Positions 1 to 17,664 of a stretch of DNA of 17,664 nucleotides are shown here, piece after piece. The notes under the pieces were generated by a model, which worked only from the letters and a program-made list of their open reading frames with translations, was not told the origin of the DNA and ran no database searches. Source of the stretch: an uncultured Anaerolineaceae bacterium (lineage in GTDB: Bacteria > Chloroflexota > Anaerolineae > Promineifilales > Promineifilaceae); assembly GCA_937967805.1 (NCBI GenBank), contig CALBTC010000327.1:1-17664 (forward strand), read 5' to 3'. Each line of letters begins with the position of its first letter. The first letter of the stretch is position 1. The translations under genes were made by a program, and so were the position numbers.

Positions 1-282
<282 letters not shown>

Positions 283-462: not shown

Positions 463-2592
463 ATGGCAATTCATTACGCAAAAGATGAACAGCATATTGT
501 GACGTTGACGCTGGACCAGCCGGGACGGTCGGCCAACGTGATTAATGCCGAATTTGGCGTGGCGTTGGCGGCGGCGCTGGAGCGTTTGCAGGCGGAAACG
601 GATCTGGCGGGCGTGATTGTAATCTCGGCCAAGAAAACGTTTATGGCCGGTGGCGATTTGGCGTGGCTGTACGCCGTTACGGATGCTGCCCAGGTTTTTG
701 AAAGTGCTGAGATGCTTAAAGCGGCGTTTCGCGCGCTGGAAACGTTGGGTGTGCCGGTGGTGGCGGCGATCAACGGGACGGCGCTGGGCGGTGGCCTGGA
801 GCTGGTGCTGGCCTGCCATCACCGTGTGGTGTTGAACGACGGCCGTATCAAGCTAGGTTTCCCCCAAGTGTCCCTTGGATTGCTGCCCGGCGGCGGTGGC
901 GTCACCCGTTTGCCGCGCATGATTGGCTTGCAGGCAGCCTTCCCGCTGCTGACAGAAGGGACACAATTAGACCCAACGGCCGCACAAAAAGTGGGTCTGG
1001 TCGATGCGTTGGCTAAGGACACGGCCGATTTGCTGGCCCAGGCTCGCGCCTGGATTGTGGCCAATCCCGAGGCAGCTCAACCGTGGGACAAGCCGGGTTT
1101 CCGCATCCCTGGCGGTGATCCGCGCAGCCCGCGCGTGGCGCAAATGTTGTCGATTGCGCCAGCTATGCTGAAGAAGCGCACCTATGGCAACTATCCCGCG
1201 CCGGAAGCAATCTTGAGCGCGATGGTGGAAGGAACCCAGGTCGATTTTGCCACAGCCGGCCGGATTGAATCCCGCTACTTTGCCCAACTTGCCACCGGGC
1301 AGGTGGCCAAAAACATGATCAACGCCTTTTGGTTCCAGCTCAACCAGATTAATGCCGGGACCAGCCGGCCGCAAACCGTGCCGCCGCAAACGGCAAAAAA
1401 GGTGGGCGTGTTGGGTGCGGGGATGATGGGGCATGGTATTGGCTATGTGACGGCCGTTTCCGGCAAAGATGTCGTTCTCAAAGATGTTACCCTGGAACAG
1501 GCCGAAGCGGGCAAGGTCAAAATTGCGGCGCTGTTGGATGGGCGGATTGCCAGGGGTAAGCTCAGCAAAACGGAGCGCGACGAAACGTTGGCCCGCATCC
1601 AGACCACGATCGATGCTGCCGATCTGGCGGGCTGCGAATTGATCATCGAAGCGGTGTTTGAAGACCGGGAGCTGAAGGCGAGGGTGACACGAGAAGCGGA
1701 AGGGGTTTTGGCGGAAACGGCCGTCTTCGCCAGCAACACGTCAACGTTACCTATCACTGGACTGGCGCAGGCGTCAAAACGGCCGCAAAACTTTATTGGC
1801 CTGCACTTTTTCTCGCCGGTGGAGAAGATGAAGCTGGTAGAAATCATTACCGGTGCGGAAACCAGCGAAGAGACGCTGGCTAAAGCGTTTGATTTTGTCC
1901 TGCACATTGGCAAGACGCCAATAGTAGTGAATGACAGCCGCGGCTTTTACACCTCGCGCGTGTTTGGTACCTATTTGCGTGAGGGGCTGGCCATGCTGGG
2001 CGAAGGGCAGCATCCGCGGGCAATTGAGTCTGTCGGTTTGCAGGCGGGGATGCCGGTGGGGCCGCTGGCCCTGGCCGACGAGGTGAGCCTGGGGCTGATG
2101 CTGCACATTCGCGAGCAGACGCGCAAGGATTTAGCCGCAGAGGGTGAAGAAATACCAAACCACCCTTCTGATGCGGTGCTGGATGTGATGACGGGGGAAT
2201 ACGGCCGTTTCGGCAAAGCGCGTGGCGCTGGATTTTACGACTATCCTGAAGACGGCAAAAAGCATCTTTGGCCGGAACTTAGAACGATTTTCCCAGCGCG
2301 CAGCGAACCCTTGTGCCAGACAGAAATGATGGAACGGCTGATGTTTGTCCAGGCGCTGGAGACGGTGCGCTGCCTGGAAGAAAACGTGGTCACCAGCGTG
2401 GCTGACGCCAATATTGGCTCGATTTTTGGCTGGGGCTTTGCGCCGTTTAAGGGGGGCACGCTGCAATACATCAATGATTATGGCGTAGCGGCCTTTGTAC
2501 AGCGCAGCCAGACGCTGGCGGAAAAATACGGGCCGCGCTTTGCGCCGCCGGCCAAGCTGTTGGCAATGCGGGATGCCGGCCACACGTTTTAG
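463..2592 (+). CDS. fadB: Fatty oxidation complex alpha subunit: enoyl-CoA hydratase / 3-hydroxyacyl-CoA dehydrogenase
   Basis: This 709-residue protein has the FadB/FadJ layout. A crotonase (enoyl-CoA hydratase) domain covers about residues 10-200: oxyanion loop AGGD at 62-65, GGGLE with Glu113, then PGGGG. An NAD-binding 3-hydroxyacyl-CoA dehydrogenase domain begins near 312, with GAGMMG at 318-323, catalytic His448 in LHFFSP and Glu460 in LVEI. Two C-terminal dehydrogenase helical domains follow, ending in GWGFAPFKGG. It would hydrate 2-enoyl-CoA and oxidise 3-hydroxyacyl-CoA, feeding the thiolase encoded upstream. GAGGGAG at 451-457 sits 5 bases before the ATG and supports this start. One oddity: the second hydratase glutamate (E. 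coli FadB Glu139) is Gln135, while the dehydrogenase residues look intact. FadB and FadJ cannot be told apart here, so the symbol is a family label. Confidence 0.94.
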   Translation: MAIHYAKDEQHIVTLTLDQPGRSANVINAEFGVALAAALERLQAETDLAGVIVISAKKTFMAGGDLAWLYAVTDAAQVFESAEMLKAAFRALETLGVPVVAAINGTALGGGLELVLACHHRVVLNDGRIKLGFPQVSLGLLPGGGGVTRLPRMIGLQAAFPLLTEGTQLDPTAAQKVGLVDALAKDTADLLAQARAWIVANPEAAQPWDKPGFRIPGGDPRSPRVAQMLSIAPAMLKKRTYGNYPAPEAILSAMVEGTQVDFATAGRIESRYFAQLATGQVAKNMINAFWFQLNQINAGTSRPQTVPPQTAKKVGVLGAGMMGHGIGYVTAVSGKDVVLKDVTLEQAEAGKVKIAALLDGRIARGKLSKTERDETLARIQTTIDAADLAGCELIIEAVFEDRELKARVTREAEGVLAETAVFASNTSTLPITGLAQASKRPQNFIGLHFFSPVEKMKLVEIITGAETSEETLAKAFDFVLHIGKTPIVVNDSRGFYTSRVFGTYLREGLAMLGEGQHPRAIESVGLQAGMPVGPLALADEVSLGLMLHIREQTRKDLAAEGEEIPNHPSDAVLDVMTGEYGRFGKARGAGFYDYPEDGKKHLWPELRTIFPARSEPLCQTEMMERLMFVQALETVRCLEENVVTSVADANIGSIFGWGFAPFKGGTLQYINDYGVAAFVQRSQTLAEKYGPRFAPPAKLLAMRDAGHTF

Positions 2593-2670
2593 GCATACAT
2601 TTTGCCAGGATCGATAAACTGATTGATAATGCAGGGTGGATTGCAGTGGTAACCCATTTGAGTAATATGG

Positions 2671-2690
2671 ATTCCCGCCTGCGCGGGAAT
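2671..2690. repeat. dRS3-like palindrome ATTCCC-N8-GGGAAT
   Basis: ATTCCCGC (2671-2678) and GCGGGAAT (2683-2690) form a perfect 8-bp stem with a CTGC loop, between the hydratase/dehydrogenase gene and the AGPS-like gene. It fits the ATTCCC-N8-GGGAAT core of the neisserial dRS3 repeat, and near-identical palindromes are scattered through many unrelated bacterial genomes. It may also act as a transcript-end hairpin, though no T-run follows. The false peptides 'FPRRRESI' and 'HSRAGGNP' that this repeat family encodes appear on the minus strand here. Confidence 0.7.
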
Positions 2691-2745
2691 GACAAGCGGA
2701 GTGCAAGCGCAATCCAAAAAAAATTTAGGAAGAGAGAAATAAATC

Positions 2746-4545
2746 ATGGCAGATAAATCACTTGATAAAGGATCAAGTGGCGAAGATATTCGCTACGATC
2801 ATAAATGGGGGTTTACCGATACTTACTTCAAGGTAAATCCAGACAAAACTGTGACCGTGACCGGCAGCCGTTACGCCCTGTCTGGCACCGTCATGCATGA
2901 ATTTTTACCCTTCGTCGAGGAGATGCTCGACATCAAAATTGATTTTGACGATCTAAAACCAGAAGTCCAGAATAAACCCGTTGCTCCACCCAGATTAAAT
3001 GAAGGGTTTCACCAGGCTCTTAAAGCACAGCTCTCCGCTGAAAAATTCACCGTTGATGATAAACAAAGATTGATTCATAGCCATGGCCAAACGACGGCCG
3101 ATGAAGTGTACAAAGTGCTCTACGGTGCGCTGGACCGCGTGGTGGATATGGTAGTTTACCCGGAAAGCCAGGAAGATGTGGAGGCGATTATCGCGCTGGC
3201 CAAAGAACATGATGTCTGTCTTGTTCCCTATGGTGGTGGCACCAGCGTAAGCTGTGCCTTGCAGTTACCGCAAAACGAAAGCCGCTCCATCGTCTCGGTG
3301 GATATGCGGCGCATGGACAAAATTTTGTGGATCGACCATGAAAATTTCCGTGCAGGCGTGCAGGCGGGCATTACCGGCAAGCAGTTGGAAGAACGGCTGG
3401 AGCAGGCAGGTTACACCAGCGGCCACGAGCCCGATAGCCTGGAATTGTCTACGCTGGGCGGCTGGATTGCCACCAACGCCAGCGGCATGAAGAAGAACCG
3501 CTACGGCAACATCGAAGACATCGTGGAGTCGGTAACGATGGTGACGCCAAACGGGGTTATCGAACAAGGTGCAGCTATGCCGCGCCAATCAATCGGAATC
3601 GATCCGAAGCAGGTGGCGTTTGGCAGCGAGGGCAACCTGGGCATCATTACCAGTGCGGTGATCAGAATTCACAAACTGCCGGAGGCCAAGAAGTATGGCT
3701 CGCTGGTGTTCCCCAATTTTCAGGCGGGCACTGAGTTTCTTTACGAGCTTTCCCAAACCGGTACGCTGCCGGCCAGCATTCGCCTGCTGGACAACATTCA
3801 GTTCCGCTTCGGCTCGGCGCTGAAGGGTGAACCGACGCGTATGGAGGCAATCATTGGTGAAATCCAGAAATTCTTCCTGCTGAAAGTGAAGAAGTTCGAT
3901 CCTAACGAACTGGTCGCCGCCACGATTGTGATGGAGGGGACGAAGGAGCAGGTGGATTACCAATCCAAACTCATTAACCGGTTGGCCAAGAAGTATGGCG
4001 GTATTGCCGGGGGCGAGACCAACGGCAAGCGAGGCTACATGCTCACCTATGCCATCGCTTACATTCGCGACTTCCTGACGGATTTTCACATTATTGGTGA
4101 GACGTATGAGACGACGGTGCCTTGGAACAAGGTGCAGGCGGTGATTGATGCCGTGGCCGAACAGGTTGATAAAAAGCACAAAGAGTATGGTTTGCCGGGA
4201 CGGCCGTACATCTCCCCGCGCATCACCCAGCTTTACCATACCGGGGTATGCATCTACTTCACGCACGGCTTTTCCACGGTCGGCGTGGAGAATCCCGACG
4301 AGATTTTTAGCAAGATTGAACATTCATTGCGAGAAACCATTATGGCCGCCGGCGGCTCTATCTCCCATCACCACGGGGTAGGCAAAATTCGTAAGGATTT
4401 TATGCAACAGGCTATTTCGCCGGCAGCTGCTGAGCTAATTAAAGAGATCAAGAAGGCCAACGATCCACAAAACATCTTTGGCATTCGCAACAATATTTTT
4501 GCAGAAGCTACCGAACCGGATCGCGTGACTGAGCCAAATTTGTAG
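2746..4545 (+). CDS. agpS: Alkyldihydroxyacetonephosphate synthase-like FAD enzyme
   Basis: This 599-residue protein resembles eukaryotic AGPS over its whole length, not just the generic FAD-oxidase fold. The FAD-binding PCMH domain has PYGGGTSVS at 161-169 and GHEPDSLELSTLGGW starting at 226; the cap and C-terminal domain follow. Residues that AGPS uses in catalysis are kept: Arg346 in ASIRLLDN, Arg441 in AYIRD, Tyr504 in CIYF and the His triad 541-543 in SHHHGVGK. AGPS swaps the acyl chain of acyl-DHAP for a fatty alcohol, giving alkyl-DHAP and free fatty acid, the committed step of ether-lipid synthesis. The first 100 residues also align with the AGPS N-terminus, but no peroxisomal signal is expected in a bacterium. 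AGGA 2727-2730 and GAGAG 2732-2736 precede the ATG. A glycolate- or lactate-type dehydrogenase is less likely because of the HHH motif and the full-length match. Substrates are inferred. Confidence 0.88.
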   Translation: MADKSLDKGSSGEDIRYDHKWGFTDTYFKVNPDKTVTVTGSRYALSGTVMHEFLPFVEEMLDIKIDFDDLKPEVQNKPVAPPRLNEGFHQALKAQLSAEKFTVDDKQRLIHSHGQTTADEVYKVLYGALDRVVDMVVYPESQEDVEAIIALAKEHDVCLVPYGGGTSVSCALQLPQNESRSIVSVDMRRMDKILWIDHENFRAGVQAGITGKQLEERLEQAGYTSGHEPDSLELSTLGGWIATNASGMKKNRYGNIEDIVESVTMVTPNGVIEQGAAMPRQSIGIDPKQVAFGSEGNLGIITSAVIRIHKLPEAKKYGSLVFPNFQAGTEFLYELSQTGTLPASIRLLDNIQFRFGSALKGEPTRMEAIIGEIQKFFLLKVKKFDPNELVAATIVMEGTKEQVDYQSKLINRLAKKYGGIAGGETNGKRGYMLTYAIAYIRDFLTDFHIIGETYETTVPWNKVQAVIDAVAEQVDKKHKEYGLPGRPYISPRITQLYHTGVCIYFTHGFSTVGVENPDEIFSKIEHSLRETIMAAGGSISHHHGVGKIRKDFMQQAISPAAAELIKEIKKANDPQNIFGIRNNIFAEATEPDRVTEPNL

Positions 4546-4563
4546 TGGAATTGCAACAAACAT

Positions 4564-4622
4564 AGACTCTAAGGGTTTCTGTCTGACGGATAGGCCTGCT
4601 GAAACAGAAACCCTTAGGGTCT
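4564..4622 (+). terminator. Long hairpin after the AGPS-like gene
   Basis: AGACTCTAAGGGTTTCTGT at 4564-4582 pairs with ACAGAAACCCTTAGGGTCT at 4604-4622: 19 bp with a single G-U position and a 21-base loop. It starts 18 bases after the AGPS-like stop and ends 26 bases before the next start, so it probably ends the lipid transcript. Only a short T-rich tail (CTTTAC) follows, so factor-assisted termination or a dispersed hairpin repeat is also possible. Confidence 0.6.
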
Positions 4623-4648
4623 TTACAGGTAGCGATGAAGGAGTATAA

Positions 4649-5419
4649 ATGAGTAATAAGACGCTGCGCAGCGTTTTAATCGGGACGTTGAGTGTCCTGA
4701 TTTTAATTTTGATTGTGGCCATTGTTTTGGTTATTCGTGACAATGGCGAAACGGCCGATTCTGCCGAACCGACGGCGGTGGTGGCCGACCTGCCAACGGT
4801 GGCGACAAACACGGCCGCACCCGCTTCGCCAACCGTTTTACCCCCGGCCGTGGTGGAAATATTGCCAACCAATACCCCACTGCCCTCACCCACGCCAACC
4901 GAGACACCTGTACCTACTGAAACAGCGCTGCCGACAAACACGGCAACGGCCGTTCCCCCAACAAACGTGCCGCCGCCAACGGCCGTACCAGCCACCAATA
5001 CCCCGGTTCCACCCACCACTACGCCGGTCCCTTCGGGGCCACAGCCTGTAAATGCCAGGGGGCTTGTGGGCCAAAGCTTTGTATTGCAGGATTGGCGCAC
5101 CTCGCTGACGCCCGGCGGGCAAATCTGGTACGAATGGCGCGTGGGTAACACCAGTGGGGCAGGTGTGCCGTACTCAACCATCGGCGTCATGCCGCGCCGC
5201 AACGGCCAGGACATTGTTGCCTGGTACCAGAACAACTGGGGCGGCAACAATGACGTGATGCCGCCCGAAGGGTTAAGCTGGCCGTCGTGGATGTCTATTC
5301 CGGAAGCCGGTGATTACACACTGCGCCTGGTTGTCTGTTTTGATGGTTTCCAAAACTGTCTCAATGGGGGTGGAACTTTCCATACGCTTTCGCAAGAAAT
5401 TCCAGTGAGCATTCGCTAA
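4649..5419 (+). CDS. Membrane-anchored protein with Pro/Thr-rich linker and Trp-rich C-terminal domain (unknown function)
   Basis: I do not recognise a named family. The 256-residue product starts with a short basic N-terminus and one hydrophobic segment (about residues 8-29, LILILIVAIVLVI) with no obvious signal-peptidase or lipobox site, so it is probably a signal anchor with the rest outside the cell. Residues about 32-131 are a disordered spacer of repeated Pro-Thr units (PTPTETPVPT and similar), a style common in Chloroflexota surface proteins. The last 125 residues look like a compact beta-rich domain with seven Trp and two Cys (VVCFDGFQNC) that could form a disulfide. AAGGAG at 4638-4643, 5 bases before the ATG, fixes the start. 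The hairpin upstream suggests its own promoter. A role in binding cell-surface or extracellular material is only a guess. Confidence 0.85.
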   Translation: MSNKTLRSVLIGTLSVLILILIVAIVLVIRDNGETADSAEPTAVVADLPTVATNTAAPASPTVLPPAVVEILPTNTPLPSPTPTETPVPTETALPTNTATAVPPTNVPPPTAVPATNTPVPPTTTPVPSGPQPVNARGLVGQSFVLQDWRTSLTPGGQIWYEWRVGNTSGAGVPYSTIGVMPRRNGQDIVAWYQNNWGGNNDVMPPEGLSWPSWMSIPEAGDYTLRLVVCFDGFQNCLNGGGTFHTLSQEIPVSIR

Positions 5420-8355
5420 TGGGCATTTGAAGGTAGGCTGTTTATCGGCAAAAGTAAGGTAAAGGTGACGCCCTCGCCAGGGATGCCGCTGCTGTAAACC
5501 TGGATACGGCCGTCGTGCCGTTCAATAATCTCTTTTGCGATGGCTAGCCCCAACCCGGTTCCTGGTTGACCAGAGGAACGCCCCGCTTCACCGCGATAAA
5601 AGCGAACAAACAAATTGGCGTGATCCTCTGGCGTGATGCCAGGACCAGTGTCGCTAATGCTAACTTCCTGCCAGAGCATGTCGCTCTCGCGCCGTTGCCC
5701 GGTGGCCAGAGTGATCGTGCCGCCGGCGGGCGTGTAATTGATGGCATTGGTGAGCAGCACGCTGAGCACCTGGCCAATTAGACCCGGATCAGCATGGATG
5801 GGCTTTAGGTTGGCTGCCAGGTCGAGCTTGAGATTTAGCTCCTGCTGCTCGGCCATACTTTGACGGTCCTCCGCATATTCCTGAACCAATTCATTCATTC
5901 GAAAAGAGGTGCGTCTCAGGATAACCTGGCCTTGTTCCAGGCGGGCCAGGCGCAGTAAATCTTCAACAATCAGGCCGAGCCGAATTGCTTCGCGGTGGAT
6001 GCGGTCTGAATATTTTTCGTGGTTGCGTGGATTGCGTTTCAGCAGGTCGCTGTGCAGGCGCAGGTTGGTAATTGGCGTGCGCAGTTCGTGCGAGACGTTG
6101 GCGATGAAGGCATCTTTCATCCGCTCCACTTTCTTAAATGCACTGATGTCGCGCATGGTGCAAACGATGCCCGGTTCGCGACCATGATCAGCAATTGGTG
6201 ATAAAGCTACTTCGATATCAAATTGGGTGCCGTCTTTGCGTTGCGCCATCAATTCGGCGCGTTCAGTTTGCAGAAAATCCTTCGCGCGGTCCAGCAAGCG
6301 GCTCATAGCTCGTTGGTACTCGTGGGTAATAAAATCAATGGGCGATGCATCGTTGATTTCGTCTGGTTTGTAACCGAACAAGTCACAGAAAGCAGGATTA
6401 CAGGTTTTGACGATGCCGCCGGCTGAAAGCAGCAAAATGGCATCGGGGCTATTATTGAGGATGGTTTCTGCTTCTTGCATGGCGCGCCGCAGCTCGTTGG
6501 TGCGTTCCAAAACGGCTTGCTCCAGCTGTTCGTTATAAAATTCCAGTTCTTCATACAGTTTGGCATTTTGCAGGGCCGTGGCGGCATGATTGGCAAAGGT
6601 AGTGGCAATATCAATTTCTGCGGCGGTGAACGGCCGTACTTCCTGCCGGTCCAGTGTAATCATGCCAATTACTTTTCCCTGTACGATCATCGGTACACCC
6701 AGCCAAGAGCAAATGCCTCGTGTCTGGTACCGTTCAATAATTTGGTTAAAACCGGTGTACGCCTTGGATACGTCAGATAGCGACAAAGCCTTCTGCGACT
6801 TTAAAACATCCCTGTTTGGGTACTCTGGCGTCATGGGAATCCTGATATTGAGCAACTTTTCGCGATTTTTAAATCCGGTTACCGCCTTAAGGACAAGCTC
6901 GTTGCCATCAACCTGCTGCACCGAACCGCTGTCGAACTCAATGGCCTGGGCCAGTTGGTCCAGAATGCGGGTAAAGACTTCCTCCAGACGCAAAGATTCA
7001 TTGAGAACGGCCGCCGCTTCGCGCAGGGTGGCCTCAATACGCCTCTGACGTTGTTCTGTTTCATAAAGCTGGGCGTTGCGAATGGCAATGGCAACCTGGT
7101 CGGCAAAAGATTGCAGACGCTCGGCATGATGGTCGTTGAAAAAGTTGGGTGTCTGGCTGTCCAGATTGAGAAAACCGAGCACGACGCCATCTCTTTGAAT
7201 GGGGGCGCTCACGTGGGAAGCGACCCAGTCTGTCGCCGGCAAAGTTTGCCAGGCAGGGTCTTCATGGGTGTGGGGGATAGTGTACGGCCGTTTCGTTTCC
7301 ATCATCGTGCGCAAATTGACCGTCTGCTCTATCGTGAAGCGCAGCGCCAACACCTGATCCGTTATTTTGTTTTCCAGATAATAGCCATAACAGGCAGCAA
7401 CATAAGCTTCATCATTTTTAACCAGCATGATGTTGGCGCCGTCATGGGGCACCACACGTTCAACGTTTTTCAAAATGCCGTCAAATACCTTGTCCAGCGT
7501 CAGCGTGCTGTTCAAAACCGTTGCTGTGTCGCGCAGCGCCTCTGCCAGGTGCCGCTGTTCGCGCTCTGCTTTTTCCACTTGCCGCCGCTCGGTAACGTCC
7601 CGGCTGATACCCTCTACGGCAATCAGTTGGTCATTATCATCATAGATGGGCACTGCCCGATTTTGAATCCAACGAATGTGGCCCTCACGATGCACAAAGC
7701 GATGCTCTACAAAACGGTGGAGTTTCGTCAGGTTGAAAAAGTCTTCCAGTATGTGCATGTCATCGGAATAAATTATTTGCCAGAACAGCTTTGGATCTTC
7801 ATAAAATTGTTCCGGCCTGTAGCCGGTAATATGATATACGGCCTGGTTGATATATTGCAGCTTTGGTGGTTTACCTTCTTTAACAGAAAACCGGTAAATA
7901 ATGTCTGGGGCATTTTCTGCCAGGCGGCGGAAACGGGCCTCGCTGGCAAAAAGATCGGCTATTGCCCGTGCGCGCTCTTGTCGCAGATGTTTTTCTTCTA
8001 GAGCCCGCTTTACCGCTTCACCCAGGCGCGTAAGACGGTCTTTTAGCAGATAATCGGCCGCTCCCTCCTTCATACAGGTCAATGCTGCTTCTTCCAGCGT
8101 TCCGGTAATGACAATAAACGGAATGTCTAAGTCCAGTTCCTGAAGAATATGCAAGGCATCCAGGGCTGTGAATTGGGGTAGGCTGTAATCGGCCAGGATC
8201 AAATCAGGTTTTTGGGTGACAGCCTGATAATATGCTTCCCTGTTATCCACGCGCTGCCAATGAGGTTCATACCCGGAACGCTCTAGCTCGTGAATAACCA
8301 GATACGCATCATCCTCTCTGTCTTCTAACAGAAGCACATTTAATCGTTCGTTCAT
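5416..8355 (-). CDS. Receiver-PAS-GAF-GAF-PAS sensor histidine kinase
   Basis: This 979-residue soluble kinase begins with a receiver domain (residues 1-123): acid pocket Glu11/Asp12, phospho-acceptor Asp56 in LADYSLP, Thr84 and Lys105. Then follow PAS (about 141-260), GAF (285-430), GAF (453-600), a coiled coil, PAS (630-735), HisKA with phospho-His756 in SHELRTP, and HATPase_c (855-975) with the N box in LLTNAINYTP, then DTGPGI and GTGLGLA. No membrane segment is seen. A receiver at the front usually lets another kinase control the transmitter, and the genes just upstream encode a kinase and a free receiver. The start ATG at 8353-8355 has only a weak ribosome site (TTGAG), 57 bases after the preceding gene, so the genes are probably co-transcribed. 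Its stop overlaps the stop of the convergent gene. The ligands of the PAS and GAF domains are unknown. Confidence 0.93.
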   Translation of the reverse strand: MNERLNVLLLEDREDDAYLVIHELERSGYEPHWQRVDNREAYYQAVTQKPDLILADYSLPQFTALDALHILQELDLDIPFIVITGTLEEAALTCMKEGAADYLLKDRLTRLGEAVKRALEEKHLRQERARAIADLFASEARFRRLAENAPDIIYRFSVKEGKPPKLQYINQAVYHITGYRPEQFYEDPKLFWQIIYSDDMHILEDFFNLTKLHRFVEHRFVHREGHIRWIQNRAVPIYDDNDQLIAVEGISRDVTERRQVEKAEREQRHLAEALRDTATVLNSTLTLDKVFDGILKNVERVVPHDGANIMLVKNDEAYVAACYGYYLENKITDQVLALRFTIEQTVNLRTMMETKRPYTIPHTHEDPAWQTLPATDWVASHVSAPIQRDGVVLGFLNLDSQTPNFFNDHHAERLQSFADQVAIAIRNAQLYETEQRQRRIEATLREAAAVLNESLRLEEVFTRILDQLAQAIEFDSGSVQQVDGNELVLKAVTGFKNREKLLNIRIPMTPEYPNRDVLKSQKALSLSDVSKAYTGFNQIIERYQTRGICSWLGVPMIVQGKVIGMITLDRQEVRPFTAAEIDIATTFANHAATALQNAKLYEELEFYNEQLEQAVLERTNELRRAMQEAETILNNSPDAILLLSAGGIVKTCNPAFCDLFGYKPDEINDASPIDFITHEYQRAMSRLLDRAKDFLQTERAELMAQRKDGTQFDIEVALSPIADHGREPGIVCTMRDISAFKKVERMKDAFIANVSHELRTPITNLRLHSDLLKRNPRNHEKYSDRIHREAIRLGLIVEDLLRLARLEQGQVILRRTSFRMNELVQEYAEDRQSMAEQQELNLKLDLAANLKPIHADPGLIGQVLSVLLTNAINYTPAGGTITLATGQRRESDMLWQEVSISDTGPGITPEDHANLFVRFYRGEAGRSSGQPGTGLGLAIAKEIIERHDGRIQVYSSGIPGEGVTFTLLLPINSLPSNAH

Positions 8356-8412
8356 CTCAATCGTGTTCAGGATAAATACTGTGTCTGTTGAATTGGACCA
8401 GGACGGAAAGCC

Positions 8413-8856
8413 TTAAGCATTATTGGGCGGCTGGTTCAAAATGAGCCAGTAAAAGCCAAGCTGCTTAATTACTTCCACAAACTCGTCAAAATCGACCGGC
8501 TTGCGGATGTAGCTGTTTACGCCGTACTCATAGCTTTCAACAATGTCTCGTTCCTGATCGGAAGAGGTCATGACCACAATGGGAATGGTGTGCAGGTCCG
8601 GATCGCTCTTGACGCGCCGTAATACTTCCAGGCCATCTATTTTGGGCAGCTTTAGGTCCAGCAAGATGAGCCGGGGCGTGTGGTTTTTCTTGCGATCTGC
8701 ATAGTTGCCTTCGGCAAAGAGGAACGCCAGGGCTTCGGCGCCATCCCGTACTACTTCAACATGATTAGCCAGCTTGTTTTTGCGCAATGCATGCAGGGCC
8801 AGCTCGATGTCGTCTAGGTTATCTTCAACAAGCAATATTTCCACTGAATTACTCAT
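8413..8856 (-). CDS. Rcp1-like single-domain response regulator
   Basis: The 147-residue protein is a lone receiver domain with no output domain. It has the acid pocket Glu11/Asp12, phospho-acceptor Asp67 in LILLDLKLP, switch Thr97 and Lys119 in RKPVDF. The extended loop after the second helix and the C-terminal FVEVIKQLGFYWL tail are typical of Rcp1, the partner of cyanobacterial phytochrome Cph1. The kinase encoded directly upstream has the matching bacteriophytochrome-type transmitter, and the two genes overlap by 4 bases (ATGA at 8853-8856), so they are almost surely a cognate pair made in step. With no DNA-binding domain it must act by protein contact or by passing phosphate on; the next gene downstream, a kinase with an N-terminal receiver, is a candidate relay partner (inference). 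Confidence 0.95.
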   Translation of the reverse strand: MSNSVEILLVEDNLDDIELALHALRKNKLANHVEVVRDGAEALAFLFAEGNYADRKKNHTPRLILLDLKLPKIDGLEVLRRVKSDPDLHTIPIVVMTSSDQERDIVESYEYGVNSYIRKPVDFDEFVEVIKQLGFYWLILNQPPNNA

Positions 8857-11800: not shown

Positions 11801-12635
11801 GTTGGTATCTTTCCTCCGATTTTTTCAAGGCGATCTCTGCTTCGACCCGTTCCGTCACGTCTCGCGCGTTTGTCACAACGCCCCTGATATTGGGATCATC
11901 CAGCAAATTGCGCCCCACAGCTTCGATGGTGCGCCAGGTGCCGTCTTTATGACGGAAACGGAATGTTTCGGTAATGGTTTTTTGCGGATGCTGTACCAAT
12001 GATTGAAACAGGTTGAGCAAATGGGGTAAATCATCCGGATGCACCAGGCTAAAGGCGTCCTGATTTTCTAATTCTTCAGGCGGGTAGCCAAAGACGTGTT
12101 CTGCTGCCGGGCTTTGGTACGTGATCATCCCCGAGGCATCAATAATGGTTATGACGTCGGTTGATTGTTGTACCAGGGTACGGAAGCGCGCTTCGCTTTG
12201 GCTCAGGGCCAGTTCGGCTTCCTGGGCTGTTTCTACAATTTGTTGGTATTGTTCCTGGCTGTGTCGCAGCGTCTGGGCAATGTTCATTTGCTCCGTCAGG
12301 TCTTCGACAATGACCAGGACGGCATCACGGCCGTTGTAGGGAATGGTGTGGGAGGTAATGCGCACTTCCAGCAGCGTGCCGTCCTTGCGCCGGTGCTGCC
12401 AACCCTGTGTAATTTGCCGCTCCGGCCGTTCCTGCTGCAAATGTTCCAGTAGCGTAGGAACATCTTCTCCGGGCCGAATGTCGGTGATGCGCATTTGCAG
12501 AAATTCTGCCTCGCTGTAACCGTACTGCAAGACGGCCGCATGGTTCACCGCCAGGAATTGCAGCGTTTCCTGGTCGTAAATCCATATGGGATAGGGATGG
12601 TTGGTAAACAGCAAGCTTTCAATTGTCTCGGTCAT
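8853..12635 (-). CDS. Five-PAS, two-GAF sensor histidine kinase with bacteriophytochrome-type transmitter
   Basis: I place the start at the ATG at 12633-12635 (MTETIES...), giving 1260 residues. The frame stays open to a TTG at 12698, but that would overlap the previous gene and add 21 basic residues outside the first PAS. Domains in order: PAS1 about 8-113, PAS2 155-260, PAS3 278-387, PAS4 408-515, GAF1 550-690, PAS5 708-812, GAF2 857-1005, coiled coil, HisKA with His1047 in SHDLRAPL, and HATPase_c from about 1150 with NALKYT, DNGIGFD and GTGVGLATV. The DLRAPLRAM box and the EYEGTGVGLATVQRIIHRHGG-type tail are those of bacteriophytochrome kinases, yet no phytochrome chromophore module is seen, so light sensing is not supported. 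It probably phosphorylates the overlapping Rcp1-like receiver. It is cytosolic. Signals are unknown. Confidence 0.92.
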   Translation of the reverse strand: MTETIESLLFTNHPYPIWIYDQETLQFLAVNHAAVLQYGYSEAEFLQMRITDIRPGEDVPTLLEHLQQERPERQITQGWQHRRKDGTLLEVRITSHTIPYNGRDAVLVIVEDLTEQMNIAQTLRHSQEQYQQIVETAQEAELALSQSEARFRTLVQQSTDVITIIDASGMITYQSPAAEHVFGYPPEELENQDAFSLVHPDDLPHLLNLFQSLVQHPQKTITETFRFRHKDGTWRTIEAVGRNLLDDPNIRGVVTNARDVTERVEAEIALKKSEERYQLLYDNAPNMFVSVDPKTVQVLKCNETVFRKLGYSKEEIIGRPVTDFYHPDSKKKVAGLLETFIQTGKLQNVELQLLHKDGRIIDVMLNSTAVRDEAGNILYSSSIWHDVTELKQAQDALAASERLYRTLTETLPHVIWLADAEGQVTFLNQAWYRLTGLSKEESLGSGWVSAVHPDDVDDLLAKWEHAYKHGEDYRGECRFRAADGSLRILAFIGTPVYDEQGSITNWVGINSDITQQKEALKALEEVEKQLKARVRQQAAVAKIGQIALSEPELNKLFDQAVSVVADTLQIPFCKVLELQPSGTELLLRAGVGWQEGLVGQAAVSADLDSQAGYTLQSDGPVIVTNMHQETRFNGPALLLDHGIISGMSTVIHGRKGPFGVLGAHTDTPRLFTQDDINFLASVANVLAVAIESQQYHAQANYLSTIVQSTEDAIIGKSLEGIIKSWNTGAEKMYGYTAEEAIGRHISFIAPPEKKAEIEKFMRQLSQGKHIYHFETKRVRKDGTVIDVSLSLSPIQDAGNKIIGASAIARNITALKEAQRDKERLLISERIAHQKAVQSRRRLAFLVEAGKLLGSSLDYEETLRAVTQLATPDIADWCVVNLLDKNERLRLVSIAHADPAKVTWAQQLHEQYSQSDTAAYEVIETGRAQLYRHITDEMLVQNAIDETHLSVLRQAGLCSLMLVPMKTHGKAIGTISFISSREEYLYDEADLAMAEELAARAGTAVENARLYRETKQLNQALEERVRQRTAQLEAVNADLEAFAYSVSHDLRAPLRAMDGFSRILLEDYAEEMAEQAAFYLRRIRRNAQQMGDLIDDLLTFSRLGRQPLQKEVVAPQALVQKAWEQLKEEQPERSVNITIQAMPPCHADRSLLAQVFTNLLANALKYTRTRETSQILVGATEQNGRTVYFVQDNGIGFDAKYAEKVFGVFQRLHRAEEYEGTGVGLATVQRIIHRHGGKIWAEAEVDKGATFYFTLEDEENL
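8862..8867 (-). promoter_or_regulatory. Ribosome binding site inside the upstream kinase gene
   Basis: GAGGAG on the minus strand lies 5 bases before the ATG of the Rcp1-like regulator and inside the last codons of the preceding kinase gene. This, together with the ATGA overlap, supports the chosen start and translational coupling. Confidence 0.75.
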
Positions 12636-12666
12636 AGTGGTGTAGTGCTTCTTACAGCAGGGTAAT

Positions 12667-14037
12667 TTAAGTGCTGACCGTCGTTTGCGGTATGGCAACG
12701 GGTATTATAACTGTAAACGTGCTGCCGATGCCCGGTTCGCTCACAACTTTAATCTGCCCTTGCAGCTGATCGATGATCTGTTTTGCCAGGGCCAGCCCCA
12801 GGCCAACGCCATGAAAGTTCCGCGTTAAGGAAGGGTCTCCGATGAAAAACGGTTCAAAAATTGTCTCGAGGTGATGCGCCGGGATGCCAATGCCGCTGTC
12901 TTGCACCACAATTTGGAGCTCGTACCGATTGTTGGGCAGGGAACGGCCGTCTACCCAAACGGTTACTTCACCGGCCGGCGTGAACTTGACGGCATTATCC
13001 AGCAAATGGACCAACACCTGCTGCAGCCGGACACCATCGCTGATAACCACATCGGGCACGGTCTGGCTGATATGCGTGTGGAGGGCCAGCCCTTTCTTGT
13101 GGGCCGGCGAGAAAACCATGTCCACCGCCTGAGAAAGGCAGGTCTGGAGATGAAACGGCCGTTGGCTGATGAGCCTCTTACCACTTTCTGCCTGGCTCAA
13201 ATCCAGCATCTCCTCTACCAGCTGCAGCAGCTCTTGCGATTTATCCTGGATGACGTCTACCTGTTCTGCCTGCTCGGGCGGCAGGTCATCATGCTGCAGC
13301 AGCGTGGCCATGCCGATGATGCCGTTGAGCGGGGTGCGCAGTTCGTGGCTCACGTTTTGCAAAAAAGCTGTTTTGACCACATTGGCCGATTCAGCCTGCA
13401 TCAGCGCCTCCTGAATCTGGTTAAACGCCTGCTGCAGTTGGTGTTGCTGCTGCCGAACCTGCAAGTTGGATTGTTCCAGCCACGTAAGAACGGCATAGAG
13501 CAGCAGCGCACCGGTAAAAATGATGGCGACAATTGTTGCCAGGTCAGACAGTTGCACCATGGGGGAGATTGTTGTGCGAAGGTAGCCCAACCTTTCTGCC
13601 GCAAAGAGAAGCGTCACGGCAGAAAGGCTGGCGGCAGAAAAAATTAAGACGGCACTTCCCCCCAGAAGTAAGCCCGAAATAATGAGCAGCAAAAAGTAAC
13701 CGCCGCTGCTGATGCTGCGAATGCCGTCATACGCATACAGGCTGCCACTGGTAAGCAGCAGCAGGAAAATAGGCAAAAGCCAGCTGACCAGCACTACCCG
13801 CTGCCGGCGCAGCAGCAGCAGCATGGCCAAAATCAGGGGAACGGCCGTTCCGCCAAAGGCCAAACCCAACATGCGCCTGGCCGGATCGATCACAGTCAAG
13901 GTTGCTACCAGTGCAATTAGCCCTACTAATAGCACGAGGAGAAACAACCTCAAAATCGGCGCCTGTTTATCCCCTAGAATGTTGCCCGTGCCGGTTAGCA
14001 CGCTTCGAACGTTTGCTGTCGGGCTAAAACTTACCAT
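12667..14037 (-). CDS. Membrane histidine kinase with about six transmembrane segments
   Basis: The 456-residue kinase starts with a run of about six hydrophobic segments between residues 28 and 185 (for example [17 protein letters not shown] and [14 protein letters not shown]) with very short loops, so it likely senses something in or at the membrane rather than with an outer domain. A coiled coil (about 185-220) leads to HisKA with phospho-His231 in [10 protein letters not shown], then HATPase_c with [10 protein letters not shown] near 346, DSGIGIP and [10 protein letters not shown]. No receiver is fused. It ends 31 bases before the five-PAS kinase, so the two are probably co-transcribed. 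No regulator gene sits next to it, and its partner may be a receiver encoded downstream. The ATG at 14035-14037 has a weak GAG ribosome site. Confidence 0.92.
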
Positions 14038-14097
14038 CGCTACTCAGTACGATACTAATATCACCTCTGCCTGAGATCATACCGGAGTTGAGGTTAC

Positions 14098-14156
14098 AAA
14101 CCATGACCCATTAGACCGAAATTGAATAGGTCAAAAGTACTGGTAGGTTATGGTTT
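14098..14156 (-). terminator. Imperfect hairpin spanning the end of the LuxR-type regulator gene
   Basis: AAACCATGACC (14098-14108) pairs with GGTTATGGTTT (14146-14156) with one mismatch, and GACC/GGTC pair again inside the loop (14114-14117 with 14129-14132). The stem includes the TAA stop of the regulator (14148-14150). Only TTTG follows on the minus strand, so termination is uncertain. The rest of the 110-base gap (14038-14147) shows no clear promoter. Confidence 0.33.
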
Positions 14157-14789
14157 AAGCAAATTTTCTTGAACCGCTTTGGTGGCAGCCGTTGTTCTGG
14201 ACTTCACGTTCAGCTTTGTCAAGATGCTGCTCACATGGTTTTTTACGGTCGAAGGAGAAATCCTCAGCGCCAAAGCAATATCTTCGTTTTTTTTCCCGGC
14301 CACAATATGGCGCAGCACCTCTTTTTCCCGGTCGGACAAACCGTAATCGCTGGGCGGCTGCACTATTGTTTCCAACAGCAGCTTGGTGGCTTCCGGTGCC
14401 AGGGTGGGTTCTGCCCGATGGGCGTTGCGAATGGCCTGGGCCAGCTCCACGGCCGGCACGTTTTTTAGCAAATAGCCAATGGCCCCAGCCTCCAGCGCAT
14501 CTTTGACCAACGTTTTGTTGGAGAAGCTGGTAAGGGCCAGCACCTGTACCTGCTTGTTTTGCTGCTTGATTTTTTTAATAGCTTCAATGCCGTTCATTTC
14601 TGGCATGATTAAATCCATCAAAATCACGTCGGGCTGCAAGGCTTGCGCCAGTTCAATGGCCACTCGGCCGTTTTCCGCTTCCCCAACCAGCTCCAGGTCC
14701 GGGAACGCATCCAGCAGGGATTCTAATCCTTCGCGCACAATAATGTGATCATCAGCAACCAGAACGCGAATGGTTTCTTGAGCTTTCAT
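14148..14789 (-). CDS. NarL/FixJ-family response regulator with LuxR-type DNA-binding domain
   Basis: The 213-residue protein has a receiver domain (1-125) with Asp13/Asp14, phospho-acceptor Asp59 in ILMDLIMP, Thr87 and Lys109 in YLLKN. A LuxR-type helix-turn-helix follows (about 148-210): LSDREKEVLRHIVAGKKNEDIA, then the recognition helix SPSTVKNHVSSIL. It is the only DNA-binding protein in the signalling cluster. Its gene overlaps the upstream HisKA_3 kinase gene by 4 bases (ATGA, 14786-14789), the usual layout for NarX/NarL, DegS/DegU and LiaS/LiaR pairs, so that kinase should phosphorylate it. The nearest purine-rich site (GGAGG) is far from the ATG, so translation probably depends on ribosomes finishing the kinase gene. 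Targets are unknown. Confidence 0.95.
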   Translation of the reverse strand: MKAQETIRVLVADDHIIVREGLESLLDAFPDLELVGEAENGRVAIELAQALQPDVILMDLIMPEMNGIEAIKKIKQQNKQVQVLALTSFSNKTLVKDALEAGAIGYLLKNVPAVELAQAIRNAHRAEPTLAPEATKLLLETIVQPPSDYGLSDREKEVLRHIVAGKKNEDIALALRISPSTVKNHVSSILTKLNVKSRTTAATKAVQENLLKP

Positions 14790-17664
14790 GCTGTTTTACC
14801 CATTTCCTCCGGCCAGCGGATGTTTACCGTTGTGCCTGTGCCCACAGCTGTGTCGATAGAAAAGTGGGCGTTGATGCCGGCCGCGCGTTCCCGCATGACC
14901 TGTAAACCAAGATGGCCGGGGGCGACGGCCGTTGGATCAAATCCCCGGCCATCATCGGCAACAATGACCTCCACCCCACCGCCGCGGCATCGCAGTGAGA
15001 GTTTGATGCGGGTGGGCATCGCGTGGCGTACAACGTTGTTTAATGCCTCCTGCGCAATGCGAAACAGCGACATCTTCACGTCCGGCGGCAGGTGGCAATC
15101 ATCATCAATTTGGATTTCCTTCTCGGCAGCCGCCCGCGCCGCGGCCGATTCCAGTAAATGCCCCAGCAGCTCCGGCAGGTTCACTTCCAGTAAATCTGCC
15201 GGGCGCAGCTCCAGCAGCAGCAGGCGCATTTCCAGCAGCGCGCTGCGCGCCAGCTGCGATATCCGGCGCAGCCGTCTTTTCCCTTTTTCCCGATCTTGCC
15301 GCCAATTTTGTGGCAAAACGTCGGCCATCAGGGCAATGGACCACAGCGTCTGGCTGACCGCATCGTGCAGGTCCCGGGCCAGCCGTTCCCGCTCCCGCAG
15401 CGAAGCCAGCTCGCGCGCCCTGGCATAAAGCTGGGCATTGCGGATGGCGATGGCCGCATAGTCAGCAAATGCCGCCAGGTTATCGGCCTGGTGCCGGGTG
15501 AAGAAGTTGGGCCGGTCGCTGTCCAGGTTTAAAAAACCCAGCGTCTCTCCTTGCCACTGAATGGGCGCGCCGATGTAGGAGCGTATCCATTCGGTGCCGG
15601 AGATTTGGAACCAGCGATTGTCTTGATATGTATCCCCGATGCAAACCGGTTTTCCGGTGACGCTCATCTCTCGTAAATGAGCAATGTTGGCAAGGGAATA
15701 GCGCACATTGCTAATCAATTGGGCAATGCCATATTGTTCATAGCCGTGGTGGCGGACTATTGTCAATACATCATCATCTACCAGCATGATGTTTCCCACC
15801 TCGTGGGGCACCACGCGCCGGACGTTGACCAGAATCCGATCCAGCACCTCATCCAGGTCCAGCGACCGGCTCAACGCGGCGGCCGAATCGCGCAGCGCCC
15901 CTGCCAGGGCGCGCTGTTCTTGCTCGCTTTCTTCAGTGCGGCGCTGTTCGGTGATGTCGCTGTTGATGGCCACGGCGCCAATGGTCTTACCAGTATGATC
16001 TTGTACCAGAGAAACGGAAGAACGCACAACAATGCGCCGTCCCGATTTTGTTGCTTGCCTGACTTCACCGCGCCAGTTGCCCGTTTCATAAAGTGCCCGG
16101 ACTGAGGATTCTAAGGTTTCGCTGCCCAGAAATTCAGTTTGCAGCAGGTCTATAATGTTTCCTTTAACTTCCCCCTCCTGCCAACCATAGATATGCTCGG
16201 CTGCCTTGTTCCAGCTGGCTACGTGGAAATTGAGATCGGTTGAGATGATGGCGTCTGATACCTGGTTCAGCAAGTTTGCCTGGTAGCGCAGCTGTGCCTC
16301 AACGGAGCGACGCTCGATAACCTCTTGCCGAAGCTGTTCGTTGGCCTGGGTTAATTCGGCGGTGCGCCGGGAGACTTGCTGCTCCATCGTAGCGGCATAC
16401 GTTGTTAATTTTTGATGCAGCTGTGCCCGTTCTAATGCCGCGCTTACCTGGGCTGCCAGGGCTTGCAGGAACCGTAAATCGTATTCAGAAAACGCCCCTG
16501 TCTGGCTGAAGTTGTCGGCAAAGGTGGCTCCGATTCGTTCCTCGTTCACAAGGAGCGGCACCCCAATCAATGATTTTAGCCGGTCGAGTTCCGGATAGCC
16601 TAGAAGTTCAAACGCCGGATTTGCCTGGGCATCATTAATAATGACGGTTTGTCCGTCGCCAAAAATGGGCCGGATCAGGCTAACATCTGGGGCAAAGGTG
16701 AGCTGGTCTAACAGCTCATTCCGATAACCTGTATGCGCTGCCACTACCAACTGCCCTAAATCTTTGTTGTACAGGAGCACGGTGGCGGCTTCGGCGGCGG
16801 GCAGGGCAGCGGTAATGGTGTCCACGATGGTTTCCAGCAGTTCGCCCGGGTCCAGCGAGCGTGCCAATTGTTGGCCCACTTTGAGCAGCCCGCCAAGCTC
16901 ACGATTGCGGCGTATGAGTTCGCGTTCGGCCTGCTTTTTATCAGAGATATCGCGATTGATGGCAACCAGGCCGACAACCTCACCAGCATCATTTTTAATT
17001 GTTGAAGACGAGGCCATCACTTCCACCAGACGGCCGTCTTTGGTTTGTTGCCTCACTTCGCCATGCCATTCACCGGTTGATTTCAGTTGGGCCAGGGCTG
17101 CGGCCCGACTGGTTGTGCCAAAATCCGTTTGCAGCAGTTCGGTGGCGTTGCGGCCAATGGCTTCATCGGCCGACCAGCCGTACAGGTTCTCGGCACCGGC
17201 GTTCCAGCTGGTGATTGTCAGATCAAGCGTGGTAGAAAGGATGGCATCGCTCACCTGGGATAGTAGGCGACTTTGATACTGTAAGGCTTCTTCTGCCTGC
17301 TTTTGTTTCAGCAGCGTGCCTAACTGGTTGGCAACGGCCGTTAATAATGGGCGCAGCAGGTTTTCTTGCCCGGTAGATTGTTGGCCAAAAAAGAGCAGAA
17401 CGGCCGTTACGTTCTCATCATCCAAAATGGGTACTCCCAGCGCCGTGCGAAACTTAACGGCATATGCTTCGCTCAGGCGGGGGAATTCTGCGGCAGAAAT
17501 TTCGCTGATGTCGATTTTTTCCAGCGGCTGCTGCCCGGCCCAGACCTGTCCGGGTAACCCTTCTCCTCTGGCAAAGGTTCGTTTCTGGCCTGCCTCTATA
17601 AACGCCAAAAGGTCCAGATCATCTTCCGGTTCCGGATAATGGGCAAAGCGATAGAGCCGCTCGG
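14786..17664 (-). CDS. GAF-PAS-GAF-PAS-GAF NarX/DegS-type histidine kinase, N-terminus cut by window edge
   Basis: The frame is open from the TGA at 14786-14788 to the right edge, so the start lies outside the window; at least 958 residues are present. The first visible residues (ERLYRFAHYPEPEDDLDLL) run straight into a GAF domain with GEGLPGQVW and LLFFGQ, so a TTG at 17608 is not the start. Approximate domain positions: GAF 17664-17330, PAS 17290-16930, GAF 16890-16430, coiled coil, PAS 16310-15940, GAF 15880-15425, HisKA_3 15400-15190 with RDLHDAVSQTL (phospho-His codon 15365-15367), HATPase_c 15090-14800 with QEALNNVVRHA, DDGRGFD and HLGLQVM. The two PAS units are alike (QVSDAI..ST, SWN..AE, YGW, LLQT) and look duplicated. 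It should phosphorylate the overlapping LuxR-type regulator. No membrane segment is visible in the part present. Confidence 0.93.
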   Translation of the reverse strand, partial: ERLYRFAHYPEPEDDLDLLAFIEAGQKRTFARGEGLPGQVWAGQQPLEKIDISEISAAEFPRLSEAYAVKFRTALGVPILDDENVTAVLLFFGQQSTGQENLLRPLLTAVANQLGTLLKQKQAEEALQYQSRLLSQVSDAILSTTLDLTITSWNAGAENLYGWSADEAIGRNATELLQTDFGTTSRAAALAQLKSTGEWHGEVRQQTKDGRLVEVMASSSTIKNDAGEVVGLVAINRDISDKKQAERELIRRNRELGGLLKVGQQLARSLDPGELLETIVDTITAALPAAEAATVLLYNKDLGQLVVAAHTGYRNELLDQLTFAPDVSLIRPIFGDGQTVIINDAQANPAFELLGYPELDRLKSLIGVPLLVNEERIGATFADNFSQTGAFSEYDLRFLQALAAQVSAALERAQLHQKLTTYAATMEQQVSRRTAELTQANEQLRQEVIERRSVEAQLRYQANLLNQVSDAIISTDLNFHVASWNKAAEHIYGWQEGEVKGNIIDLLQTEFLGSETLESSVRALYETGNWRGEVRQATKSGRRIVVRSSVSLVQDHTGKTIGAVAINSDITEQRRTEESEQEQRALAGALRDSAAALSRSLDLDEVLDRILVNVRRVVPHEVGNIMLVDDDVLTIVRHHGYEQYGIAQLISNVRYSLANIAHLREMSVTGKPVCIGDTYQDNRWFQISGTEWIRSYIGAPIQWQGETLGFLNLDSDRPNFFTRHQADNLAAFADYAAIAIRNAQLYARARELASLRERERLARDLHDAVSQTLWSIALMADVLPQNWRQDREKGKRRLRRISQLARSALLEMRLLLLELRPADLLEVNLPELLGHLLESAAARAAAEKEIQIDDDCHLPPDVKMSLFRIAQEALNNVVRHAMPTRIKLSLRCRGGGVEVIVADDGRGFDPTAVAPGHLGLQVMRERAAGINAHFSIDTAVGTGTTVNIRWPEEMGKTA

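Follow-up and report, generated by a model that had tools for sequence, protein, structure and literature searches.

The window analysed here, a stretch of 17,664 nucleotides from an uncultured Anaerolineaceae bacterium (contig CALBTC010000327.1), codes, on reading by eye, for a FadJ-like protein, an FAD-linked oxidase and a series of sensor kinases and response regulators. Scattered through it is the octamer ACGGCCGT, a perfect palindrome with G or C at six of its eight bases, which was found in 22 exact copies between positions 839 and 17407. All the copies listed in the original prediction were recovered at their positions, and the excess of 70-80 times the chance level given there agreed with the approximately 69-fold excess found here, 200 dinucleotide shuffles of the window yielding a mean of 0.32 copies and a maximum of 2. 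No other palindromic octamer was strongly enriched, the runners-up being present in 3 copies each. The 22 copies were all inside seven of the nine long open reading frames (ORFs) and were split 10, 8 and 4 over the three frames; the same prediction had placed copies in seven of the nine long coding regions and in different frames.

The hexamer core CGGCCG occurred 49 times in the window. In the 27 cores outside ACGGCCGT one or both outer bases were changed, a single one in 17 cases. These 17 single-base variants compared with 2.7 expected, while the three core pairs had 1, 1 and 1 variants against 2.1, 1.6 and 1.1 expected. The inner tetramer GGCC was present 162 times, with 119-160 expected depending on the model.

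No methyltransferase was noticed on reading the translations of the window ORFs, and neither a search against plasmids with an 8-kb part of the window nor an Rfam search gave a match. The oxidase was 95% identical to the oxidase of an Anaerolineaceae metagenome-assembled genome (MAG; locus L001). A protein search with the 940-aa kinase gave a best match of 63% identity, named from Anaerolineales.

Abundance in related genomes

The genome-wide counts given here are from the genomes of relatives and not from the genome of the window itself. Among 80 loci containing the oxidase, ACGGCCGT was the top palindromic octamer in eight (L001-L005, L007, L008 and L012), which belong to Anaerolineae, Chloroflexi or Chloroflexota. 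Locus L016 had TCGGCCGA in its place, with 16 copies in 17.4 kb. The cyanobacterial loci L035, L057 and L069 of the same set displayed HIP1 (GCGATCGC), the highly iterated palindrome (HIP) of cyanobacteria, and served as a natural positive control.

In the whole genomes behind 21 of the oxidase loci, ACGGCCGT was present in 6,316-12,866 copies in eight rich genomes and in 19-1,727 copies in the other 13, and the reversed word used as a control had 2-580 copies across the 21. Three close relatives contained 11,907 copies in 8.1 Mb, 11,512 in 7.3 Mb and 12,866 in 7.7 Mb, far above the 403, 99 and 64 copies of the reversed word. The signal that had been called HIP1-like from the window is therefore HIP-like and genome-wide in relatives, with counts in the thousands per genome. 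Genome G016 contained 9,414 copies of TCGGCCGA.

Of 396 genomes drawn from the class of the relative G002, 20 had more than 2,000 copies of ACGGCCGT. Since one of these, G295, has mostly flank-free cores, the dialect with A/T as its outer pair comprises 23 genomes, eight from the loci and 15 from the draw; the outer pair was sampled directly in some of them and the rest were assigned by their octamer count. These 23 Anaerolineae MAGs contained 2,984-14,867 copies each, or 0.99-2.1 per kb, which is about one per 650 bases.

Some genomes of the class draw represent the opposite extreme within one class, CGGCCG being nearly absent from G257, G378, G143, G071 and others (2, 7, 13 and 16 copies, respectively, in 3.3-6.0 Mb). 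The reversed palindrome GCCGGC was nearly absent from G198 and G015 (51 and 132 copies) while CGGCCG was abundant (13,814 and 21,019). In a 16.5-kb locus of the bacterium CPR1 MAG (L026), GCTCGAGC was detected 13 times against 1.1 expected and is perhaps another iterated palindrome, with a CTCGAG core.

A fixed core with dialects in the outer pair

In 400 kb of G002, 639 copies of ACGGCCGT were present. Against first-order Markov expectations, single-base variants at the outer pair were in excess in G002 (199, 49.3 expected), G003 (252, 71.7 expected) and G016 (143, 61.5 expected). The three core pairs had 41, 36 and 24 variants in G002 (46.5, 34.4 and 23.8 expected), 29, 31 and 9 in G003 (53.4, 43.1 and 31.9 expected) and 39, 31 and 40 in G016 (43.4, 49.9 and 48.7 expected). 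As near-misses exceed chance at the outer pair only, the core hardly decays in place. The near-miss copies, which had been taken to suggest a turnover of gain and loss, were in excess at positions 1 and 8 only, and variants of the core were at or below chance.

The invariant unit is the CGGCCG core, and the outer pair varies by genome between A/T, T/A (TCGGCCGA), G/C (GCGGCCGC) and free forms. In samples of which many were 20 kb or smaller, A/T flanked 116 of 136 cores in G002, 67 of 102 in G370, 36 of 56 in G375 and 27 of 53 in G152, T/A flanked 77 of 115 cores in G016, and G/C 56 of 64 in G198. The outer pair was mostly free in G015 (195 cores, 17.9 expected), G364 (87, 7.5 expected) and G295 (66, 7.2 expected). 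A two- to fourfold excess of the core with no dominant pair was found in G087, G341, G014, G013, G006, G210, G239 and G286, and CGGCCG was not seen to be enriched in what was sampled of G095, G169 and G010, nor in the samples of G194 and G074, which were of 4-5 kb only.

Codon use and conservation

Synonymous codons were shuffled in samples of approximately 400 kb per genome. The coding copies numbered 588 in G002 and 596 in G003, and the shuffles left 68 ± 7 and 80 ± 7, respectively; for TCGGCCGA in G016 the numbers were 484 and 33 ± 5. Codon, amino-acid or composition bias might be read from the placing of about half of the coding copies in frame 0 (320 of 588 in G002), but copies are found in all frames and the outer pair flips between relatives. 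The original prediction had discounted codon and motif bias, and the synonymous shuffles together with the ortholog conservation described below refute such bias, which as an explanation is practically excluded.

When the window was compared with its relative G001 in alignments of at least 300 bases, counted two ways, the site was kept in 14 of 15 comparisons and octamers in general in 32%. Coding orthologs were defined as reciprocal best hits of at least 60% identity and were also counted two ways, the pairs not being independent of each other. In five pairings drawn from the window, G001, G002 and G003, 418 of 513 sites were kept, compared with 7,490 of 35,834 other octamers (21%). The silent third base was identical in 93-100% of codons inside sites and in 57-67% of the same codons outside: 227/244 and 795/1386 for ACG, 232/238 and 2524/3774 for GCC, 73/73 and 615/1077 for CGG, and 70/71 and 944/1665 for CCG, with Fisher p values on halved counts of 5e-9 to 4e-16. 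The comparison of close relatives that the original prediction had called for thus revealed conservation beyond the synonymous expectation. Of the 95 losses of a site, 92 were gap-free, and 33 of these 92 were single-base changes (18 of them outer) and 59 were changes at two or more bases.

The octamer was less dense between genes than in coding sequence (1.15 and 1.65 per kb, respectively, in G002; 1.13 and 1.68 in G003; 0.97 and 1.38 in G016). This bears on the idea of a DNA uptake sequence with dialects particular to each species, like those of Neisseriaceae, which the fixed core and exchangeable outer bases resemble. The uptake signals known so far lack palindromic symmetry and are enriched between genes, whereas the sites described here are symmetrical and poorer there, and we regard an uptake function as very improbable. 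The octamer also lacks the asymmetry and strand orientation of Chi and uptake sequences, being a perfect palindrome.

Spacing of sites

The spacing of sites was analysed with site-poor stretches omitted, namely 103.1-129.0 kb of contig C90 of G003, the first 12.6 kb of C30 and the first 62 kb of contig C51 of G001. The hazard of meeting the next site rose from 0.53 per kb at distances under 25 bases to about 1.9-2.1 per kb at 200-1,400 bases, and in G016 it climbed from 0.33 per kb to 2.0 per kb, a value reached at 1.4-2 kb. Sites less than approximately 200 bases apart show mutual repulsion. Local conversion events that are independent of each other would not by themselves produce such spacing, whereas a process whose returns saturate, whether by selection or by mechanism, would. 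The positions of the sites and cores in the window are given in Table 1.

Table 1. Exact octamers and CGGCCG cores with altered outer bases in the window.
Feature	Sequence	Position	Match
Site 1	ACGGCCGT	839..846	exact match
Site 2	ACGGCCGT	1450..1457	exact match
Site 3	ACGGCCGT	1717..1724	exact match
Site 4	ACGGCCGT	2201..2208	exact match
Site 5	ACGGCCGT	4200..4207	exact match
Site 6	ACGGCCGT	4946..4953	exact match
Site 7	ACGGCCGT	4979..4986	exact match
Site 8	ACGGCCGT	5506..5513	exact match
Site 9	ACGGCCGT	6630..6637	exact match
Site 10	ACGGCCGT	7284..7291	exact match
Site 11	ACGGCCGT	9084..9091	exact match
Site 12	ACGGCCGT	9625..9632	exact match
Site 13	ACGGCCGT	11527..11534	exact match
Site 14	ACGGCCGT	11559..11566	exact match
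Site 15	ACGGCCGT	12327..12334	exact match
Site 16	ACGGCCGT	12943..12950	exact match
Site 17	ACGGCCGT	13155..13162	exact match
Site 18	ACGGCCGT	13841..13848	exact match
Site 19	ACGGCCGT	14925..14932	exact match
Site 20	ACGGCCGT	17030..17037	exact match
Site 21	ACGGCCGT	17334..17341	exact match
Site 22	ACGGCCGT	17400..17407	exact match
Core, one outer base off	GCGGCCGT	58..65	
Core, one outer base off	ACGGCCGC	976..983	
Core, one outer base off	ACGGCCGA	1021..1028	
Core, both outer bases off	CCGGCCGG	1256..1263	
Core, both outer bases off	CCGGCCGC	1365..1372	
Core, one outer base off	ACGGCCGC	1779..1786	
Core, one outer base off	ACGGCCGA	3094..3101	
Core, one outer base off	ACGGCCGA	4751..4758	
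Core, one outer base off	ACGGCCGC	4811..4818	
Core, one outer base off	CCGGCCGT	4844..4851	
Core, one outer base off	ACGGCCGC	7007..7014	
Core, both outer bases off	TCGGCCGC	8054..8061	
Core, one outer base off	ACGGCCGA	9324..9331	
Core, one outer base off	GCGGCCGT	9883..9890	
Core, both outer bases off	CCGGCCGA	10407..10414	
Core, one outer base off	TCGGCCGT	10423..10430	
Core, one outer base off	ACGGCCGC	11017..11024	
Core, both outer bases off	GCGGCCGA	11679..11686	
Core, one outer base off	CCGGCCGT	12422..12429	
Core, one outer base off	ACGGCCGC	12532..12539	
Core, both outer bases off	CCGGCCGG	12971..12978	
Core, one outer base off	ACGGCCGG	14449..14456	
Core, one outer base off	TCGGCCGT	14664..14671	
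Core, both outer bases off	CCGGCCGC	14877..14884	
Core, both outer bases off	GCGGCCGA	15141..15148	
Core, both outer bases off	GCGGCCGA	15879..15886	
Core, both outer bases off	TCGGCCGA	17166..17173	

Viruses and mobile DNA

A search for gapped triplets of ACGGCCGT recovered 21 pieces of viral contigs, 17 of which contained more than 1 copy per kb. Behind these pieces were 15 whole virus records, and 11 of them had 1.4-3.5 copies per kb over the whole record while four did not. The pooled density without the seeds was 2.05 per kb compared with 1.55 in the 23 hosts, a virus density that is biased upward because the search favoured dense records, and the hosts are assigned from the octamer alone. 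Pieces of seven of the 11 dense records were scanned. Portal, terminase, tape-measure or head proteins were encoded in five of them, an endolysin and a helicase in the sixth, and in the seventh an FtsK-like protein together with a weak match to terminase. The virus carriers of the octamer include tailed phages. With a strong excess in host genomes and in these 11 virus records, picked for dense sites, the octamer is not distributed as a site avoided under restriction.

Among 12 viral loci with the T/A form, L373 alone was clearly dense at moderate GC content (11 copies in 11.1 kb) and carries a phage primase/helicase; L375 also contained 11 copies, at 69% GC. The viral scan for the G/C form gave at least 120 stretches, and of six loci under 60% GC inspected among the 80 listed, two were dense: L409, with 13 copies in 4.6 kb and an auxiliary-gene match only, and L458, with 8 copies in 3.2 kb and no protein match. 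The reversed word gave 21 stretches in viral contigs, the eight densest holding 3 to 7 copies each.

On the viral contig L360, the minus strand at 9827-11098 encodes a phage protein that combines a ParB-like part with a predicted DNA methyltransferase; its virus record contains 106 octamers in 46 kb. In the viral contig L349 (GC 0.69), GTGGCCAC was the top palindrome with 14 copies in 13 kb, perhaps a further phage-borne iterated palindrome.

A 25.8-kb Tn7-like island in G003 (C90:103166-128945, L207-L208) contained no octamer. Its genes encode a TnsA-like protein, TniQ, a 5-methylcytosine (m5C) methylase, an Mrr-helicase and a GHKL ATPase, and the island is likely a recent arrival.

If the octamer were a password or Chi-like sequence, a nuclease or recombination complex would spare or repair DNA written in the host dialect, and phages would have acquired that dialect. 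The dense whole virus records with their phage structural proteins, the T/A piece with a primase/helicase, the two dense G/C pieces and the site-free island are in line with such a function. Known Chi sites are asymmetric, however, the virus records were chosen by dense sites with their hosts taken from the octamer, and the site-free island persists in the chromosome; we consider this explanation unlikely. A structural site of the nucleoid or chromosome, occupied by an abundant dimeric protein, would account for the palindrome, for the evenly spread and mutually repelling sites and for a single core with several outer pairs, but the octamer is dense in virus records too and has fewer copies between genes, and such a role appears quite improbable.

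Candidate methyltransferases

The methylase families PF00145, PF02086 and PF01555 were searched. Eleven of the 23 rich genomes had no match to PF00145 (m5C), although gaps in the MAGs could hide some, and no m5C ortholog group common to the rich genomes was found. In 24 m5C genes, three of them from the flank-free G295, only 7 octamers were present in 23.4 kb (0.3 per kb), 18 genes having none, while the whole loci around them had 0.95 per kb. Six Dam-like genes contained 10 octamers in 4.5 kb, and 15 genes for a DUF1156-like protein contained 65 in 29.6 kb (2.2 per kb), with none in two. The octamer-poor m5C genes therefore look like recent arrivals, and the octamer-rich Dam-like and DUF1156-like genes like long-standing residents.

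An m5C methyltransferase was rejected as the general agent owing to the missing matches, the lack of a common ortholog and the few sites in the genes. One m5C ortholog group was common to G015, G364 and G087; it has an end part like that of E. coli Dcm and presumably recognises CCWGG. Dam-like PF02086 enzymes, which we take to be GATC-specific, were strong in six of eight rich genomes tested and were also present in poor genomes. PF01555 enzymes had no ortholog in all rich genomes, the DUF1156-like protein aside.

This protein, encoded in G002 at L170:16657-18732 on the minus strand, matched PF01555 with 54.9 bits (cut-off 26.7) and DUF1156 below that family's own cut-off, and showed weak likeness to PglX, HmaB and the NCBI model of DUF1156 anti-phage proteins. 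In an alignment of 25 orthologs, TDPPY was invariant and a DPMMGGGT stretch was conserved. Orthologs were found in 21 of the 23 A/T genomes, split and partial copies counted, as well as in G016 and G198. In the class draw, at 47% identity or more and with short partial copies included, it was present in 18 of the 20 genomes richest in the octamer and in 34 of the 376 others. Among phage records there was one weak match only, covering 27% of the query. The DUF1156-like methylase is the best candidate agent, and is a lead. As to the methyltransferase link raised in the original prediction, no m5C enzyme was common to the rich genomes, and the DUF1156-like candidate is tied to the octamer by association only; the orphan methyltransferase sought there has a resident candidate, whose orphan status is not firm.

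Relation to known iterated palindromes

HIP1 was described in 1995 and to our knowledge is still without an agreed function. A literature search on this octamer, highly iterated palindromes and palindromes in Chloroflexi found no description, subscription papers being mostly outside reach. Elhai 2015 (PMC4390886) treats HIP1 and its alternates in cyanobacteria, and in the portions available to us proposes GmeC-directed repair and gives a predicted methyltransferase for each of the highly overrepresented sequences; the main text, as far as available, makes no mention of Chloroflexi or CGGCCG. According to the same portions, HIP1 is likewise a GC-rich palindromic octamer of approximately 500-2,500 copies per Mb, has its near-misses mostly at positions 1 and 8, and has a hexamer core with an exchangeable outer pair, TCGATCGA occurring in cyanobacteria. 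The differences are the CGGCCG core in place of CGATCG, the phylum Chloroflexota, the three outer pairs and the flank-free form, the lack of an m5C methyltransferase common to the rich genomes, and the virus records that bear the octamer. The earlier view that the sequence is distinct from HIP1 and its genome not cyanobacterial agrees with this core and with the Anaerolineae relatives.

Alternate cyanobacterial HIPs (GGGATCCC, GGCGCC, rCCGGy and GCsGC) are cases in which another palindrome takes the role of HIP1 at similar density, in single genomes or pairs in what we could see of PMC4390886, whereas ACGGCCGT was abundant in no fewer than 23 of the related genomes that were searched. With its excess, density, GC-richness and one-off copies at the first or last base, the octamer falls within the HIP class in Elhai's wide sense and outside HIP1 proper. 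It also departs from the GmeC pattern made by an outer G/C, as A/T and T/A dominate the sampled octamer genomes and only G198 had G/C. We regard it as a real HIP-type system of Chloroflexota with an interchangeable outer pair. In Dulcicalothrix desertica PCC 7102 (L041), AGGCGCCT and TGGCGCCA were present in 6 and 4 copies with 0.1 expected of each, which fits the GGCGCC palindrome reported for Calothrix PCC 7103 in the available part of PMC4390886.

PMC6604393, of which a part was available, states that statistical analyses back selection on HIP1 (citing Xu 2018) and describes GGm4CC methylation in Synechocystis by M.Ssp6803II, the loss of which is linked to transcription, replication and DNA repair. 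The recognition sequence of this enzyme, GGCC, is the centre of the CGGCCG core.

Biased repair alone could also maintain functionless sites, modification and repair converting near-sites in a ratchet (Elhai 2015). Under such a ratchet, near-misses should gather at the outer pair, the density should level off near one site per kb and sites should repel each other, all of which was observed. In Elhai's form, as far as the source was available, it needs the GmeC that the outer G/C makes for CGATCG and that the A/T and T/A dialects do not make at their outer pair, and lost sites usually differ at two or more bases. Biased repair as the whole explanation is possible, if rather doubtful.

Interpretation

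The reading judged most likely, still tentatively, is methylation with repair: ACGGCCGT would be a symmetrical mark, its core predicted to be modified by a resident DNA methyltransferase and read by mismatch repair or recombination. Sites would then be under selection and not merely copied by biased repair. The mark would be base methylation, and N4-methylcytosine is compatible with every outer pair because the core contains no A. The DUF1156-like methylase may set the mark, and mismatch repair or recombination may read it. If the reader needs a site within about 1 kb, four-base sites are frequent enough by chance and sites of six to eight bases are not, so that the genome would have to accumulate them.

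Several observations weigh against methylation with repair. The hazard drops to 1.36-1.37 per kb beyond 1.4 kb, and in G016 to 1.06 beyond 2 kb (12 events), a long-range fall that is not predicted by selection for coverage alone and that may be due to stretches with few sites, for example recent arrivals. Conservation was lower (0.717) for sites with a neighbour within 60 bases, which is not significant on halved two-way counts (p 0.18), and the relation of conservation to spacing is suggestive only. The DUF1156-like methylase is also present in 31 draw genomes with few ACGGCCGT (34 with short partials). Some of these carriers are of the G/C dialect or show the core in slight excess, and the carriers G095, G169 and G010 had no CGGCCG enrichment in their samples, so that the methylase is apparently not sufficient. 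Nor does it appear necessary: it was not found in the octamer-bearing G007 and G152, in the flank-free G015, G295 and G364, nor in G220. Kinship alone may give the association, as the classes cluster on a tree of 30 of the orthologs. A fold search with a model of the protein (pLDDT, predicted local distance difference test, 83.6) gave partial matches only, led by the tRNA methyltransferase Trm11 (E 3.5e-4); the DNA methylase CcrM ranked lower. Orphan status was assessed from ORF clusters within 1.5 kb only, the ten largest of which overlapped the DUF1156-like gene.

Somewhat more doubtful than methylation with repair is a dialect system in which a CGGCCG core every 0.5-1 kb with a genome-specific outer pair would be recognised by a dimeric reader other than a known m5C methyltransferase. 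Phages would adopt the host dialect, and DNA lacking it would be taken for foreign or go unrepaired.

Any explanation must cover the A/T, T/A, G/C and flank-free forms, the genomes without a detected m5C enzyme, and the phages. The octamer offers a clue, from sequence alone, to phage hosts and recently acquired DNA. With a second HIP-type system, built on another core in another phylum and with relatives that differ in the outer pair, the origin and upkeep of such sites become a comparative question.

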